From the NCBI GenBank assembly GCA_007118145.1, contig SKSD01000026.1, positions 28,989 through 92,988 of the forward strand: 64,000 nt of DNA, read 5' to 3'. Made by a program: the position numbers and the translations under genes. Shown here in pieces: positions 16,251-32,930 of the stretch. How positions within the stretch are numbered: the first letter of the stretch is position 1; each line of letters begins with the position of its first letter. The notes beneath the pieces were generated by a model. It searched no databases and was not told the DNA's origin. It worked only from the letters and a program-made list of their open reading frames with translations. The stretch is from Halobacteriales archaeon. GTDB taxonomy: Archaea; Halobacteriota; Halobacteria; Halobacteriales; SKSH01.

Positions 16251-17240
16251 ATGGCCGAACATCGCCCATCTGAATCACCAGCCGATGCTGCTGGAGGTGA
16301 GATTGGTACTCGGGTTGCTAAGACATTCGATGTCCTCGGCAACAAAACTCGTTTGGCGATACTGCTGGCGCTATGGGATGCGTACGATCCGCATGGAACC
16401 GATGACGCTGTTAGATTCACAGAGCTCCGTGACCAGATCGGCATCCGACAAGGAGCTCAGTTCAACTACCATCTCACGAAGCTGATGGATCACTTCGTCA
16501 CGAAAGACGACAGTGGCTACCGTCTCACACCGATCGGTCGGAAGTTCGTCCAGACTATCATCGCCGACACGATGGACGAGTCGAATCTCGAACCGACCGA
16601 GATAGCTGTCCCCTGTCATATCTGTGATGGAACGACGGCAATCGCCTACCAGGGGGGATACCTCTACCATCTGTGCCTGCAGTGTGATGGTCGACTCGGA
16701 CCAGGTTCGGTGTTCGATGAGGGACGACTCTTCATCGAACCGTTCCCCTCCTCAGCTCTTTCGACACGTCCCCCCAGAGAGCTCTTCACCGACGGTGTGA
16801 TCACCCTATTATTGATCAAAGTGATGAAGTTGGTGGGACTTTGCCCCCGTTGCTCAGGCGAGATTGAGGCATCGGTACACCTGTGTAGGGACCATCATCC
16901 GGGAGAAATGTCGGTCTGTCAAGCTTGTGGCGTCAGGGAGGAGGTTCGTGTCCGATGGGGTTGTTCGGTGTGTAAGTATCGTGGGGGTACCTCACCTGCA
17001 GAGGCTATCATCACGCACCCGACTGTCGTCTCATTCTATCATGACCATGGGATAGACATCAACTACAAGTTCAGAGACTTTGAGACTGCGAGACGACTTC
17101 GCGAGTTGATGATGTCACATGAGCAGGTGATCGTGCAGGATGATCCGTTACAGGTGGAGGTGACCGTGAAGATTGCAGATGAGGTGATGACGCTCATGGT
17201 CGACGAAGAGTTGACTGTGCGCGAGGTAACTCGAGGGTGA
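16251..17240 (+). CDS. ArsR-like winged-HTH plus multi-zinc-ribbon protein (paralog 1)
   Basis: VAKTFDVLGNKTRLAILLALWD...FTELRDQIGI...FNYHLTKL wHTH followed by CHIC/CLQC/CPRC/CQAC/CSVC knuckles; paralogous to 22170-23132 and 28058-29071. Confidence 0.85.
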   Translation: MAEHRPSESPADAAGGEIGTRVAKTFDVLGNKTRLAILLALWDAYDPHGTDDAVRFTELRDQIGIRQGAQFNYHLTKLMDHFVTKDDSGYRLTPIGRKFVQTIIADTMDESNLEPTEIAVPCHICDGTTAIAYQGGYLYHLCLQCDGRLGPGSVFDEGRLFIEPFPSSALSTRPPRELFTDGVITLLLIKVMKLVGLCPRCSGEIEASVHLCRDHHPGEMSVCQACGVREEVRVRWGCSVCKYRGGTSPAEAIITHPTVVSFYHDHGIDINYKFRDFETARRLRELMMSHEQVIVQDDPLQVEVTVKIADEVMTLMVDEELTVREVTRG

Positions 17241-21859: not shown

Positions 21860-22169
21860 GTGTAGGTTCTTTGAAGGTTTCAGGATCGACCGGATAACCA
21901 AGCGTTCGCTCGTCTATCGCGGACTTGATCGGGGTCAGTTGGTACCTTGCCCCTCATTGTCAATCCTCAACCACTGTTCGACGGATCACGGGATAAGTGT
22001 TATTTGAATGATATTTCAATCAACATTCCAATAGAACGAATGTTCAATAAGAATTGCTAGATGTTTCGTGCTTACGGATGACCGCATATCGTTTAAATGG
22101 AGCCCAATGGGGTACTTGATCGTATTGTCGGGTGGTGGGGTTTTTGAACTATGCTACGGAATAACATGT

Positions 22170-23132
22170 ATGGACGAATCGCTTCAGAAAGACACAAGCA
22201 AACCGGATACGGCAGCCACGAACGAGGCCTTCAAACTATTATCCGACGAAACCCGCCTCGAATTATTGGAGGCACTCTGGAAAGGTGACGATCCGATGGA
22301 CTCGTCTCCGATGCGGTTCGTCGATCTTCGAGAGCAGGTGACCGCCAACGACCCCGGTCAAATCCACTACCACCTCGATAAACTCACGGCACACTTCGTC
22401 CGGCACTCCGAGGAGGGCTATTCCCTCAGGGAATCGGGCAAACGGATCGTCCGTATGCTCCTCTCCGGTATCGCCCTTGAGCACCCAGAGATCGAACCGG
22501 TCGAGATAGATGTCACATGTCCTTATTGTGGCAGCCAGACGCTGTTCAGCTATCGGGATGGATGGCGCTACCTCGAATGTACCGACTGCGAGGTGCGGTG
22601 TGTCCCGAGTTTTCCCCCTGGCGTCATCAGCATGAGCGAGTTCCCTCCGTCTGGACTTCGTGACCGGACCCCGAATGAGATTGGCCACGCTGACTGGATC
22701 TGGGCTGCTCACCGCCGTGCATCGGTTATCGATGGAGTCTGTCCGGAGTGTGCGGGTGACATGCCAATCACCTCGACCTATATTTGTGATGATCACCAGC
22801 CCGATTGGGAAGCGTACCAGTTCTGTGCACATTGCGAGTCAATTTTCTGGATACTCGTGACTCACGTCTGTGAGCAATGTGAGTACAGATGGTCGATGCC
22901 CGTGTCGAATTATCTTACGAGGGAACCTGCGGTAGCTGCATTTTATTACGATCATGGGATTGAGTTCGACTTTTCGACACCGGAACAGTTCGGTCTCCTC
23001 CTTGATGTCAAAAAAGAGCTCCTCTCGGAGGATCCTCTTCGTATCCGAATGACGGTCCACCAAGACGATGAGGAACTCAAGCTCACGTATGATGACCAGC
23101 TGAATGTCGTTTCCACTGAGCGAATCGGGTGA
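22170..23132 (+). CDS. ArsR-like winged-HTH plus multi-zinc-ribbon protein (paralog 2)
   Basis: ATG at 22170; AFKLLSDETRLELLEALWKG...FVDLREQV...IHYHLDKL; CPYC/CTDC/CPEC/CAHC/CEQC. Confidence 0.85.
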   Translation: MDESLQKDTSKPDTAATNEAFKLLSDETRLELLEALWKGDDPMDSSPMRFVDLREQVTANDPGQIHYHLDKLTAHFVRHSEEGYSLRESGKRIVRMLLSGIALEHPEIEPVEIDVTCPYCGSQTLFSYRDGWRYLECTDCEVRCVPSFPPGVISMSEFPPSGLRDRTPNEIGHADWIWAAHRRASVIDGVCPECAGDMPITSTYICDDHQPDWEAYQFCAHCESIFWILVTHVCEQCEYRWSMPVSNYLTREPAVAAFYYDHGIEFDFSTPEQFGLLLDVKKELLSEDPLRIRMTVHQDDEELKLTYDDQLNVVSTERIG

Positions 23133-24390: not shown

Positions 24391-24876
24391 TCAAGGGTCG
24401 ATGATATCGAGGATATACCCTGTCAATCCCCCCGCTAAGCCACTGCTAAGAGCGACTGCGACTAAGCCGACGAACTCAGCCACGACATTCACTTCCCACA
24501 TTGGCCCACTTACATCGACAGGATCCGGTTCGAGAAGCATCATCAATACAAGGAGAACGAATAGCAACACAAAACTCCCTGCCAAAGCCGAAAGACTTCC
24601 AAATACAGCTGGTCTTTCGGCATCAGCAAAATGGAACGTCGCCCCCAAACCAACAGCGACAACCGGGGCCAGTATTGCCACCCTTTGTGTCGTTTGTCTC
24701 AGCGCTGAGAAAATATCCCTTGCTGCTGCATCAGTGATGTGTATAAACGCGGACTCAACGGCAAAATAGGTGAACAATAACGCCATTGAAAATAACCCAA
24801 TACCTACGATGCCGAATACAGTAACCCCTAAGATTGCAGCGTTCAGTGGAGTTCGACCGGTATCTGGAGCATCCAT
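24391..24876 (-). CDS. Hypothetical membrane protein
   Basis: 161 aa with ~4 hydrophobic helices. Confidence 0.6.
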   Translation of the reverse strand: MDAPDTGRTPLNAAILGVTVFGIVGIGLFSMALLFTYFAVESAFIHITDAAARDIFSALRQTTQRVAILAPVVAVGLGATFHFADAERPAVFGSLSALAGSFVLLFVLLVLMMLLEPDPVDVSGPMWEVNVVAEFVGLVAVALSSGLAGGLTGYILDIIDP

Positions 24877-24965
24877 ACGCGTAATGATTGGTACGATTAA
24901 TTATAACTGATGGCTGACGCAGGCAATATGCACGGTGCTAATGGAAGATTTACTCGATCTTTCAC

Positions 24966-25353
24966 GAAAATTCGAGGCGAAAGTCTTGCGCTTCAGCGTG
25001 GGGATAATGCCGATGACCTCAGCACGCTCCAGGGTTTTATGGAGGAGGCCGACACAACCAGACGGTAGCCACATTCTGATGAACACTGGAGTTGACTTGG
25101 GATCTTCATCGACAAAAGGCAACCCTGCGTCGGATGGCTACTCGTTCATCGTCGTCGAGTTAGGTCGATGACACGGCCTCGTGAGGTGTAAGTGGATAAC
25201 CAACCACCCCAAGCCTCAAACGAGGCCCGACGCACGACTCACGAACCACAGCCGAACCCCGACGCGGTTTCGGTCAGGGTGTCTCCGAGGAGGCACGAGC
25301 GACGTGCTGTCGAACGGAGGAATCCTCGCCGTTTACAGCGGGGAGGATGTCAA
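24966..25353 (+). mobile_element. Non-autonomous IS200/IS605-derived element, copy 1 (388 bp), TnpA/TnpB-less, omegaRNA-like right end
   Basis: Preceded by TCAC; left end gaaaattcgaggcgaaagtc... matches the left end upstream of TnpA at 63680; right end cctcgccgtttacagcggggaggatgTCAA; clearly similar over full length to 29127-29511. Confidence 0.75.
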
Positions 25354-25599
25354 ACCTGTTACATGGTTTGCATTCCACTGCTCTAACTGGTGACTCCTAA
25401 CGGAGTATCATCGTGCCGGAGGTACCATCGGGGTGAGATATCGAATAGGGTGACCTCGTCAGTATTGGCTGTAGTCGTTTGATCAAGATATTCTACCTCC
25501 GTGGAATCTGATAGCTCAAGTCATACGGAGAGGCGTTGTGCGGTTGATGAGATGATTAAGTAACCTATTCCTTTGGCGATAGCTTTAGAAAATGGGCCC

Positions 25600-26403
25600 A
25601 TGACGACGTTCGAGACCACGCCCCCAGCCGACCCGGCACGCTCGGAGTACCGACGTCTTCGGAGCTGGAACCTCATCATGGCGGGATTGCATGCCATCCA
25701 GGGGGTCTTGATGCTCGTCCTGGCTGATGCCATTCCCTGGCCGATCAGGCTGACACGCTATGACTTCGACCCAGTGGCTGAGGTAATCGAGCCAATCACT
25801 GTGGATTGGATCGAGGTCGAGTTGGCATTGCTGGTCGCATCGTTCCTGTTTCTTTCTGCCATCGCCCACCTGCTCGTCGGCACACTGCTTTACCGACGGT
25901 ACGTGTTTCATCTGTCGCGGGAAATCAACCCGTACCGATGGTACGAATACGCGCTCAGCGCTTCGGTGATGATCGTCGTCATCGCGATGCTTGCCGGTAT
26001 TTGGGATCTTGGGACATTAGTTGCGCTGTTTACCCTCGTGGCTGTCATGAACCTCATGGGACTGGTGATGGAACGGCAGAATCAGACAACGGCATCGATT
26101 GACTGGACCGCATACAACATCGGTGTCATCGCCGGTGCGGTCCCGTGGGTCGTCATAGGCATTTCGTTGGTCGGGTCGGTCACTGCAAGCGGTGGTGATG
26201 TCCCAGACTTTGTCATCTACATATTCGTCTCGATATTCATCTTCTTCAACCTCTTTGCCGTGAACATGATCTTGCAGTACCGCGAGACGTGGCGGTGGGA
26301 ATCGTACTTATTCGGCGAGCGGATGTACATCCTGCTCAGTCTCGTCGCCAAGTCAGCACTCGCCTGGCAGGTCTATTTCGGGACATTGACCTCTCCAATT
26401 TGA
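25600..26403 (+). CDS. Heliorhodopsin
   Basis: Heliorhodopsin hallmarks: RRLRSWNLIMAGLHAIQGVLMLVLA, RWYEYALSASVMIVVIAMLAGIWDL (counterion Glu116, codon 25945-25947), GVIAGAVPWVVIGI, FFNLFAVNMILQYRE, GERMYILLSLVAKSALAWQVYFGTL (retinal Schiff-base Lys251, codon 26350-26352). ATG at 25600 preferred over TTG at 25573. Confidence 0.95.
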   Translation: MTTFETTPPADPARSEYRRLRSWNLIMAGLHAIQGVLMLVLADAIPWPIRLTRYDFDPVAEVIEPITVDWIEVELALLVASFLFLSAIAHLLVGTLLYRRYVFHLSREINPYRWYEYALSASVMIVVIAMLAGIWDLGTLVALFTLVAVMNLMGLVMERQNQTTASIDWTAYNIGVIAGAVPWVVIGISLVGSVTASGGDVPDFVIYIFVSIFIFFNLFAVNMILQYRETWRWESYLFGERMYILLSLVAKSALAWQVYFGTLTSPI

Positions 26404-26775: not shown

Positions 26776-27360
26776 TTAGTCAATCGTCGGGTTGGTCGGG
26801 TGGAAGACCCCCTTGGGATTGTTGCGGTGTACCCAGACGTGGATTGCTGTCACTCCTGCCGGAGGGACGAATTCCCACCCCTCCTCCTCTGTGGTTCGCA
26901 GCTTCCGGCTTGACGACTCATCGGCGAAATAGTCATCTGGTCCATCATCGCCCACATAGGCGAATTCAACGCCCCCGATGCGCATCTCTCCCATGCGGTC
27001 CTCATCTAACGGGTCTCCAGGTGAAGGATTGTAATCACCCGTGGTGAAGTACACGAGAATCGGTGGGTTCTCGAGTCCGTCCACCGGTCCACTCCCTCGT
27101 TCGGGTGCGATAAGGTCGCCACGAACGAGGTGAAACCCCATTCCCGAGACGTACCCCAGGACCGGCGCGTAGCCATCGTCTAATGCGACAGTGACGTCTC
27201 GATAGCGTTGGGTACCGGTACGGATCGTGTTGAGCTGCCGGACGAACCCGTCTGAACCCGGTTGAGCGAGTGCTACGTTCGAACCTGCACCAACCGCGAG
27301 TCCACCTGCCAGTAGCCTGAGGGCGGTTCGCCTGCCCACTGGGTTGGACTCAGAGTGCAT
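26776..27360 (-). CDS. Tat-secreted hypothetical protein
   Basis: MHSESNPVGRRTALRLLAGGLAVGAGSNVALAQ Tat-type signal with ALAQ cleavage; start ATG at 27360 overlaps the upstream DUF4242 gene. Confidence 0.72.
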   Translation of the reverse strand: MHSESNPVGRRTALRLLAGGLAVGAGSNVALAQPGSDGFVRQLNTIRTGTQRYRDVTVALDDGYAPVLGYVSGMGFHLVRGDLIAPERGSGPVDGLENPPILVYFTTGDYNPSPGDPLDEDRMGEMRIGGVEFAYVGDDGPDDYFADESSSRKLRTTEEEGWEFVPPAGVTAIHVWVHRNNPKGVFHPTNPTID

Positions 27361-27604
27361 CGCCATCCACCACCCGGTAGATCTCGTCAGTGGTAAGCCC
27401 GTGTGCCTCGTCGTGGACGCTCGTACCTGCCTCCTTGCTCGGCGCCTCAAAGAGGCAAAAGATCGTCCCGGTTTCGTCGTCGACCCAGTACTTCTTGTAG
27501 TCGACATCATAGCGAGCCTGGACCTCCAGGTCCCGTTCGTGTGCCTCGCGAACCTCGTCCAAGGTTGCGTCCACGTGTCTGTGAACGTCCATGTACAATG
27601 GCAT
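27350..27604 (-). CDS. DUF4242 (nickel-binding-like) domain protein
   Basis: MPLYMDVHRHVDATLDEVREAHERDLEVQARYDVDYKKYWVDDETGTIFCLFEAPSKEAGTSVHDEAHGL is characteristic of DUF4242. Confidence 0.82.
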   Translation of the reverse strand: MPLYMDVHRHVDATLDEVREAHERDLEVQARYDVDYKKYWVDDETGTIFCLFEAPSKEAGTSVHDEAHGLTTDEIYRVVDGDAL

Positions 27605-28057
27605 GGTTATCGACCACCCCTTTGGATCGACTGCTGGGAGACGACCCGTAGATCGGTCGGACTAATTCGACGAGTTACCCCTTCGATAGTGTTCACGTGC
27701 GGTGCGTCAGTTCTGGCCTGTAGTATGGTGATGCTTTGGAACATCATTCCGATAGTACGCGACCGTGGATGGATATATGTTAGTAGCATGATATTACTAT
27801 TAACAACGATACAGCATCTTAGTACTCTAAATTCACCAACAGCACCCAAGTGCAGTAATTTATCTGATATACTGATTAACAGGCAAATCCGTGTATGATT
27901 TGATCACCTGAGATCTCCGCAAATTGCTGTGTTCCAAAATTCATCCTATTGGCCTTCACGCAGCGGTCGAGCCACCACGGTGATGTCATCCTTAAAGGAC
28001 AATCTCACCGATAGATGTTACCTATACGTTTATACTAAATCCTTGTTAATTGATAGC

Positions 28058-29071
28058 ATGGCCGGAGCGCGTCAAAACGGATCCCCGATAAGTCACGTTG
28101 CGGAGGGGATCGACGAGGGAATTACAGAGTTGTTCCTGCAACTCGGCAACGAGACGCGACTGGCGATCTTGCTGGCATTGGCAAACGAAAGCGCACCGAT
28201 CACACGAGAGACCTACGATCCCTCCGGACTGAGTGCCGTACCCTTCTCCGAACTTCGTGAACTGGTGGGGATACGTGATCCGGGGAATTTCAACTACCAT
28301 CTCAGGGAACTGGAGGGAACGTTCATCCGGAAAGGTGAGGATGGATACGAACTGTTACCTGCCGGGAACCGGATCGTCGCGACCGTCGTCTCGATCGCCG
28401 GCACCGAGGAGGTGACACTCGAACCGACGGAAATCGACCTCGCCTGTCCGCAGTGTGGCGCACCAACGCTCGTCACCTACCAGCGCGGACGGATGTATCA
28501 TCTTTGTACCGAGTGTGATGGGAACATCGTCGTGGGGGACCGCCACCCGCCCCGAATCCTTTCCGGGATCGTCCTTGACAGATCCGTCCTCCGCGATCGT
28601 TCGCCTGAGGATCTCTTGTTGGTACAATATGGCTGGAAATTCTACTCGTTCGCCCTCGCGATGCAGGGTATTTGCATCATGTGTTCCGGGCAGATGGAGG
28701 GCACGATCAATGTGTGTGACGACCACGAACCATCACCAAGAGGACCATGTGGGTCGTGTGGTTTTACTTACGAGGCGGCAGGGCACTTCTCATGCTCGGT
28801 ATGCAATCACTCGATGCTATGGGGGGTGATCCCGTTGAGTTCGATCCATCCCGCTGGGATCGGTTTCTGCTGGGAAGCCGATATCGAACTGGACTTTGGA
28901 AGCGGCTCACTTGACACACTAAGGCGGTTATACGATCTCTATAACGACTCGACTGTCTCGATTCAATCATACGATCCACCGAGCGTGAGCGTAACCCTTC
29001 GAAATAACGATGACGAACTGACAATATCATTCGATGAGGACCTGACCGCCGTTCATGTTACGACAACGTAG
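28058..29071 (+). CDS. ArsR-like winged-HTH plus multi-zinc-ribbon protein (paralog 3)
   Basis: ATG at 28058; LFLQLGNETRLAILLALANE...FSELRELVGI...FNYHLREL; CPQC/CTEC/CIMC/CGSC/CSVC. Confidence 0.85.
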   Translation: MAGARQNGSPISHVAEGIDEGITELFLQLGNETRLAILLALANESAPITRETYDPSGLSAVPFSELRELVGIRDPGNFNYHLRELEGTFIRKGEDGYELLPAGNRIVATVVSIAGTEEVTLEPTEIDLACPQCGAPTLVTYQRGRMYHLCTECDGNIVVGDRHPPRILSGIVLDRSVLRDRSPEDLLLVQYGWKFYSFALAMQGICIMCSGQMEGTINVCDDHEPSPRGPCGSCGFTYEAAGHFSCSVCNHSMLWGVIPLSSIHPAGIGFCWEADIELDFGSGSLDTLRRLYDLYNDSTVSIQSYDPPSVSVTLRNNDDELTISFDEDLTAVHVTTT

Positions 29072-29126
29072 CTATGTTTCAAGCTCGCTGTGTTATCTTC
29101 AAGAGTTCACGGGAATTTTAGGTTAC

Positions 29127-29511
29127 GAAACTTAAAGGTGAAAGCCTCCAGCTTTGGCACGGGGATGAAGTCGACTACCTCAGCACGCTCTAGGGCTTTT
29201 AGGAGGAGGCCGACACAACCTGACGGTAGCCACAGTTCGACGAATAGTGGAGTTGGCTTGGGGTCTTCATCGACAAAAGGCAACCGTGTCGGATGGCTAC
29301 TCGTCCATCGCCGTCGAGTAAGGTCGATGGCACGGCCCGTGGGGTGCAAGCTAATAGCCAAACACACCATGCCACTTCGGTGGCACGAAGTTCCGCCCAC
29401 GAACCACAGCCGAACCCCGCCGCGGTTTCGGTCAGGGTGCCTCTAGGGAGGCACGAGTGGCGTGCTGTCCCGCGGAGGGATCCTCGCAGTTTACGGCGGG
29501 AAGGGCACCAA
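29127..29511 (+). mobile_element. Non-autonomous IS200/IS605-derived element, copy 2 (385 bp)
   Basis: Preceded by TTAC (29123-29126); shares long blocks with copy 1 (cctcagcacgctc, gaggaggccgacacaacc, gacggtagccaca, tcttcatcgacaaaaggcaacc, ctcacgaaccacagccgaacccc-like, cgcggtttcggtcagggtg); right end tcctcgcagtttacggcgggaagggcaCCAA. Confidence 0.75.
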
Positions 29512-30483: not shown

Positions 30484-31212
30484 ATGGCAAAGGCCTTTGG
30501 AACCGGATTCGAGGCGAGTGATATGATTTCAGTTGAGCGTGAGGGGTCGGTGACCACGATCACGCTCGATCGGCCCGAGACGAAACACGCCCTCAGGAGT
30601 ACAGACCTCAAGGAACTCCACGCTCACCTGTCAGCTATCGAAACCCCTGTAGTCTTCCTGACAGGAGCGAACGGTGCCTTTTGCTCGGGAGCGGACTTTT
30701 CGGAGATCGCTGCGATGGAGGACGAGCGAGCTGCACGAGAGTTTGCGAGACTCGGACAATCGGTCGCGACGAGCCTCGAGTCGATCGATGCAATCGTCAT
30801 CGCAGGCATAGATGGGCCAGCCAGAGGTGGTGGGGTCGAACTGGCCCTGGCATGTGATATCCGTGTGGCGACGCAACGGGCGACCTTCGCCGAGACCGGT
30901 GTCAGGATGGGTCTATTCGGGGCTTGGGGCGGTACGCATCGGCTACCGGCTCTTATCGGCCTCGGTCGAGCACTCGATATCGCCCTCTCAGGCCGCGTTA
31001 TCGATGCGGATGAGGCGTATCAGATCGGACTCGTCACGCGCATCCATGAGACACCACTTGAGATCGCCCACTTCATAGCCGAACATGACGCTGCCGCGTT
31101 GGCGACACTCAAACGACGCCTACGTGATGACGGTTCGAAACACGCAAAGGAAGAACGTGAGGCGATCGCCTTCGGTGCATTAGTCAATCGGGGCCCATCA
31201 CTCCCGGATTAG
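30484..31212 (+). CDS. Enoyl-CoA hydratase/isomerase family protein
   Basis: VTTITLDRPETKHAL, FLTGANGAFCSGADFSEI oxyanion-hole motif, GPARGGGVELALACDIRVA. Confidence 0.93.
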   Translation: MAKAFGTGFEASDMISVEREGSVTTITLDRPETKHALRSTDLKELHAHLSAIETPVVFLTGANGAFCSGADFSEIAAMEDERAAREFARLGQSVATSLESIDAIVIAGIDGPARGGGVELALACDIRVATQRATFAETGVRMGLFGAWGGTHRLPALIGLGRALDIALSGRVIDADEAYQIGLVTRIHETPLEIAHFIAEHDAAALATLKRRLRDDGSKHAKEEREAIAFGALVNRGPSLPD

Positions 31213-32288: not shown

Positions 32289-32930
32289 ATGTCTCCAGCA
32301 GATCCATCGGGGATAGCCGACGGGTTAGACACGGTCACTCGACGAGATGCCATGAAGACGGGCGTCACCCTCGCAGGTGTCCTCTCGCTCGGAGCGACTA
32401 CGAGTGGCTTGACGGTAGCAGACTTTCAGGAGGTCATCGCATCGCCTGGATCGTTCGATATGTTCCTCAAGATCGACGGTATCGATGGCGACTCGACCGA
32501 TCATAGGCATGAGGGGGCGATCGATGTCCTTGCATGGAGCTGGGGTGGGGCGAATTCCGCCTCCATGCACCTTGCAAGGGGTGGCGGTGCCGGAAAGGCA
32601 ACGTTTCAAGATCTCTCGGTGTTCAAACACGTGGATAGTGCAACACCGGCGTTGTGGCTTGCAACAGCGACCGGGAAGCATTTCAAGGATGCCAGGTTGA
32701 CCCTCCAAAAACCCGGCGGTGATACACATGTTGACATGCTTGTGATCGATCTTGAAGATCTCATCGTCACCAGTATTGAGGATGCAGGCACGACCACACG
32801 CAGTCAGCTCGAGTCGATCACGCTGAACTTCGCGAGGTTCAAGATCACCTATACTCCCCAGGCACCGGATGGCACTCCACTTACCCCGATCACGGCCGGG
32901 TTTGATATTCAAAAACACGAGGCGTATTAG
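32289..32930 (+). CDS. Hcp-family (type VI secretion tube protein-like, DUF796) protein with N-terminal Tat-like signal
   Basis: VTRRDAMKTGVTLAGVLSLGATTSG signal, then FDMFLKIDGIDGDSTDHRHEGAIDVLAWSWG...KATFQDLSVFKHVDSATPALWLATATGKHFKDARLTLQKPG...LESITLNFARFKITYTPQ...TAGFDIQKHE, a close Hcp1-family pattern. Confidence 0.85.
   Translation: MSPADPSGIADGLDTVTRRDAMKTGVTLAGVLSLGATTSGLTVADFQEVIASPGSFDMFLKIDGIDGDSTDHRHEGAIDVLAWSWGGANSASMHLARGGGAGKATFQDLSVFKHVDSATPALWLATATGKHFKDARLTLQKPGGDTHVDMLVIDLEDLIVTSIEDAGTTTRSQLESITLNFARFKITYTPQAPDGTPLTPITAGFDIQKHEAY

Follow-up and report, generated by a model that had tools for sequence, protein, structure and literature searches.

An intact heliorhodopsin gene in a haloarchaeal metagenome-assembled genome and its probable role as a non-pumping light sensor

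The window, the whole stretch of 64,000 nucleotides of haloarchaeal DNA analysed here, carries a gene that is almost certainly a canonical heliorhodopsin (HeR), judging from its sequence and predicted fold, and we consider it probable that its product acts as a non-pumping light sensor. The gene is real, intact and ordinary and adds one member to a family already known; the point of interest is that some haloarchaeal carriers have no recognised retinal-making gene. The function of HeRs is an open question in the microbial rhodopsin field, and haloarchaea are promising for addressing it: named isolates are among the carriers (Halovivax asiaticus and Halostella pelagica), several carriers are free of a competing type-1 opsin, and naturally broken copies occur in a few relatives. 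The host genome (G000) is a metagenome-assembled genome of 1.72 Mb in 88 contigs, 79% complete, in which one HeR copy was found. Its relatives place it in the haloarchaeal order, in agreement with an earlier note on this DNA. The features around the gene are collected in Table 1.

Table 1. Features of the window near the heliorhodopsin gene
Feature	Position	Strand	Remarks
Third DUF7347-DUF7351 paralogue	16251..17240	+	31-35% identity to the other two
DUF7347 (winged HTH)-DUF7351 regulator, upstream flank of HeR	22068..23132	+	Pfam
Putative lipoprotein, 209 aa	23345..23974	-	N-terminal AGC motif, judged by eye; no family assigned
Divergent upstream neighbour, 161-aa hydrophobic protein	24391..24876	-	no Pfam or NCBIfam family
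Dispersed non-coding repeat upstream of HeR	24964..25357	+	~390 bp, ends in GGAATCCTCGCCGTTTACAGCGGGGAGGATGTCAA
Heliorhodopsin gene (HeR)	25600..26403	+	267 aa, ATG start, stop-free translation
Convergent downstream neighbour, secreted-type	26776..27510	-	no family; by eye, a twin-arginine-like start within the ORF
SCO4226-like family protein	27350..27604	-	E=5e-20; upstream of and overlapping the 26776..27510 ORF
DUF7347-DUF7351 regulator, downstream flank of HeR	27929..29071	+	Pfam
Second window copy of the ~390-bp repeat	29125..29504	+	81% identity; adjoins tRNA-Thr

The protein matches the Pfam heliorhodopsin family PF18761 at E=1e-94 (316.9 bits against a cut-off of 26.7) over 242 of 242 profile positions, and scores 340 bits against the NCBIfam HeR equivalog NF038020, for which the cut-off is 100. 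Among PDB sequences, its match to TaHeR (6is6) has E=3.5e-82, and that to 48C12 about E=7e-48. The sequence match to the HeR family is not due to chance. In an AlphaFold model (pLDDT 92, pTM 0.87), seven long TM helices are present and the A-B loop forms a beta hairpin, with strands at residues 46-57 and 62-74. The best ten PDB structure matches of the model are all HeRs, and type-1 rhodopsins and channelrhodopsins match its fold only at E of about 1e-3 and above. The seven-helix heliorhodopsin that the earlier note had read from the letters, and for which it had proposed a search against the Pfam family, is borne out by these matches and by the model. A type-1 microbial rhodopsin (bacteriorhodopsin, halorhodopsin or sensory rhodopsin) was rejected: there is no match to PF01036 at E<=0.001, helix G carries SxxxK and not DxxxK, and the model reaches a TM-score of only about 0.6 to bacteriorhodopsin and halorhodopsin.

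Pairwise alignment with 48C12 pairs its E107 with E116 and its K241 with K251, exactly as claimed before, so that E116 in helix C is the candidate Schiff-base counterion and K251 in TM7 the candidate retinal lysine. The TM7 lysine is thus kept, within an SxxxK motif (S247xxxK251) whose serine and lysine are invariant among 107 aligned HeRs. In the helix-C ESL motif, E116 and S120 are retained and the third position is V127 instead of L. When 106 distinct HeRs were aligned with TaHeR and 48C12, all pocket residues checked proved to be conserved (H31, Q34, S86, H90, R113, E116, Y117, S120, M124, E158, W183, Y236, E240, S247 and K251), indicating that the window HeR is not a decayed copy. In the same alignment, the only deviations from columns conserved at 85% or more are V93, E108 and one N-terminal column, and the protein keeps 41 of 41 invariant columns of a 37-row HeR alignment. 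Counts of K+R and D+E are 4 and 3 in the N-terminal segment, 4 and 2 in the TM2-TM3 loop, and 2 and 8 in the TM1-TM2 loop; by charge counting alone, this bias fits an N-terminus in the cytoplasm, i.e., the inverted topology.

By analogy with the family, K251 would carry all-trans retinal, E116 would serve as counterion, and absorption of green light would isomerise the retinal. A slow photocycle would then shift the Schiff-base cavity and the A-B loop network, as described for HeRs (PMC9385722), and HeR may alter how it contacts a partner in the membrane or cytosol, serving as a sensor or modulator with no ion pumping. The gene is probably monocistronic, because its upstream neighbour is divergent, with the ORF start about 720 bp away, and its downstream neighbour is convergent. 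Since HeR is thus probably its own transcription unit, the partner would be encoded elsewhere or be one of the two flanking DUF7347-DUF7351 regulators. HeRs have been presented as regulators of glutamine synthetase and of photolyase (available text of PMC9529153 and PMC9769723, respectively) and of an ABC transporter (PMC11109279), and a two-component link has been proposed (available text of PMC8612252). The published partners thus differ by host, and the haloarchaeal loci are consistent with the lack of a fixed partner. In favour of a sensor we count the family, residues, fold and charge bias, the published regulator HeRs and the proximity of opsin genes; against it we count the lack of a conserved partner gene, histidine kinases that are not significantly enriched, the viral HeR V2HeR3, and the failure to detect a retinal-forming enzyme or another opsin in G000.

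The supply of retinal bears on the alternative that best survives, namely that the host makes no retinal and that the opsin is therefore usually chromophore-free, working only on retinal supplied by neighbours, or else as a membrane protein that needs no retinal. No type-1 opsin, Brp/Blh or RPE65-type enzyme was detected in G000, which at its completeness is weak evidence of absence. The sole relative of the same family has neither HeR nor Brp/Blh, again weak evidence of absence in a partial genome (76% complete). Brp/Blh (PF15461) is absent from 11 of 38 high-quality haloarchaeal HeR genomes, and an RPE65-type oxygenase is present in two of those 11, which leaves nine near-complete genomes with neither (G004, G026, G034, G037, G086, G134, G169, G313 and G381, the last with RPE65 only as sub-threshold fragments). 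Four of the nine have no type-1 opsin either: G034 (Halostella pelagica), G037, G134 (Halovivax asiaticus) and G313. The genus group with the nearest HeRs lacks both enzymes in 4/4 genomes. A tracking of Brp/Blh by HeR is unsupported, Brp/Blh being not significantly commoner in high-quality genomes with HeR (27/38) than in others (178/309; Fisher p=0.12). We nevertheless regard this alternative as unlikely. The assembly is incomplete and may lack genes that the host has; the fully preserved retinal lysine and pocket suggest selection for retinal binding; and the bacterium Aurantimicrobium minutum makes retinal without known genes (PMC7734400), which leaves room for an unknown enzyme, so that missing enzymes do not show that HeR is idle. 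The Brp/Blh-less HeR carriers also offer a test of another archaeal route to retinal.

Ion transport has a precedent in V2HeR3, which transports protons (available text of PMC9448325), so that transport by the window HeR is not settled by sequence alone. We hold it to be very unlikely, since TaHeR and 48C12 are its nearest relatives of solved structure, pumping is not reported for prokaryotic HeRs in the available text of PMC8612252, and neither a viral contig nor a phage match was found for the window HeR protein. Viral or phage carriage of the gene was rejected on the same absence of a match. Separately, a 10.5-kb plasmid of Lactococcus petauri carries an annotated heliorhodopsin (NZ_CP141705.1:4155-4904).

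For the partner of a light-sensing HeR, the gene neighbourhood is a weak guide. At more than 40 haloarchaeal loci, every ORF up to about 9 kb from HeR was clustered, and 142 flanking proteins were scanned against Pfam. Across these loci, no gene family near HeR was common to more than one genus group. The neighbours vary by lineage: the Halovivax genus group has an Asp/Glu racemase, genus group g36 a downstream glycosyltransferase 2, and other haloarchaea MatE, amidohydrolase, MoaE, GDPD and HpcH-type genes; a conserved neighbour as a route to HeR function was therefore rejected. The expectation in the earlier note that native context may point to function thus largely fails, and context informs on function weakly. 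Histidine kinases, for which a linkage was proposed in other phyla (PMC8612252), show no significant enrichment near haloarchaeal HeRs (13 in 735 kb versus 13 in 1.2 Mb of control DNA, p=0.14). NAD synthase and alpha/beta hydrolase genes occur among HeR operon neighbours elsewhere (PMC11109279); their window counterparts (at 31209 and 17438, respectively) lie kilobases away, share no operon with HeR, and were set aside as coincidence. The window also encodes a type VI secretion Hcp family protein (32289-32930; PF05638, E=1e-33), here in a haloarchaeon. Of 25 genomes, 5 have a type-1 opsin gene no more than 10 kb from HeR, against 0.47 expected (p=2.5e-4), and with one Halovivax-like genome retained the count is 4 of 23 (p=7e-4); this result is exploratory, because the proximity was noticed before it was tested. 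By their helix-C motifs, the opsins at these loci (L123, L125, L130, L143 and L139) include halorhodopsin-like ones in G169, G086 and G026 and a sensory-like one in G071.

The DUF7347-DUF7351 regulators are denser in the window than in the sampled rest of the host genome (p=0.01, post hoc); outside the window, one such protein was found in the sampled 398 kb of G000 and one in 1.2 Mb of control DNA. Near HeR, relatives are also present in G209, G252 and G058. In G252 (L152:7940-9744), the regulator shares the strand of HeR and stops 51 bp before it, an arrangement like that of an operon. Enrichment of DUF7351 at other HeR loci is not significant (3 in 735 kb versus 1 in 1.2 Mb, p=0.16), and neither is enrichment over controls by locus (4/41 HeR loci versus 2/80 control stretches, p=0.18). 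We treat the adjacent regulator as HeR's partner as a lead only, and an improbable one. Less probable again is the joint proposal that haloarchaeal HeR and a DUF7347-DUF7351 regulator form a light-input module in hosts without a recognised retinal-forming enzyme; if true, such a module would imply scavenged retinal or an unknown archaeal retinal synthase.

The earlier note placed the gene among regulators and mobile-element remnants. The three regulators and the multi-copy repeat agree with this description, but no transposase was found among the genes scanned beside the window HeR. The repeat lies 240 bp upstream of HeR in the intergenic region, has several full or partial copies elsewhere in G000, some at contig ends, and finishes in a conserved hairpin. 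It matches no known RNA family in Rfam, whose only matches across the window are two tRNAs. Its end, GGAATCC...GGGGAGGATGTCAA, resembles what we take to be haloarchaeal IS1341-type right ends, and the element may represent a remnant of a non-autonomous IS200/IS605 (IS1341-type) sequence. A TnpB source was rejected, because the single TnpB detected in G000 has a different end.

HeR is carried by about one in ten genomes of the haloarchaeal order (40/394, in 21 of 95 genera). In a maximum-likelihood tree, most haloarchaeal HeRs fall into two supported clades, and host families f4, f5, f8 and f13 occur in both, which within haloarchaea calls either for transfer or for old paralogy combined with much loss. 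Because occurrence is patchy and families are intermixed, transfer or loss of HeR within haloarchaea is common. The horizontal acquisition suggested by the earlier note is plausible on these grounds, but the phylogeny that it called for gives the window HeR a long branch (0.63), placed without firm resolution at the second clade's base, with the Halovivax genus group nearest and no donor indicated. A further HeR, from a haloarchaeal metagenome-assembled genome (L039), has an extreme branch (2.38) and is perhaps a contaminant or a divergent subgroup. Natural disruptions occur: a DDE transposase ORF splits the HeR of G058 (L154), and an in-frame stop divides that of Halorubrum kocurii (L019) into two adjoining ORFs; G269 has a second, partial copy. 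A selfish or recently acquired gene with no settled role, moved by local recombination between repeats, would suit these disruptions, the patchy and mixed distribution, the adjoining repeat and the GC3 of 0.72, which no other gene among the 18 compared in the window reaches, but is rendered highly improbable by the fully conserved invariant residues, a nearly equal GC3 (0.71) in the MatE membrane protein gene, and the absence of a mobile-element gene common to haloarchaeal HeR loci.

Among known heliorhodopsins, TaHeR of Thermoplasmatales archaeon SG8-52-1 (PDB 6is6, 7u55 and 7clj) is 55% identical to the window HeR in structural alignment, and its crystal structures resemble the window model in fold (TM-score 0.87/0.92, rmsd 1.4-2.0). 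The counterion and retinal lysine are identical in the two proteins. The window HeR differs in its halophilic host, in a TM5-TM6 loop longer by five residues, and in the third position of the ESL motif, where TaHeR has I. Actinobacterial 48C12 (PDB 6su3, 6su4 and 6uh3) is about 40% identical and has Schiff-base cavity residues in common with the window HeR. The nearest haloarchaeal HeRs are those of the Halovivax genus group (74% identity in G169 and 70% in Halovivax asiaticus), which form one clade with the window HeR (96/90 support, 25 rows). Unlike the window gene, Halovivax HeRs have an Asp/Glu racemase gene upstream, and that of H. asiaticus is followed 17 bp downstream by a PNPOx-like gene.
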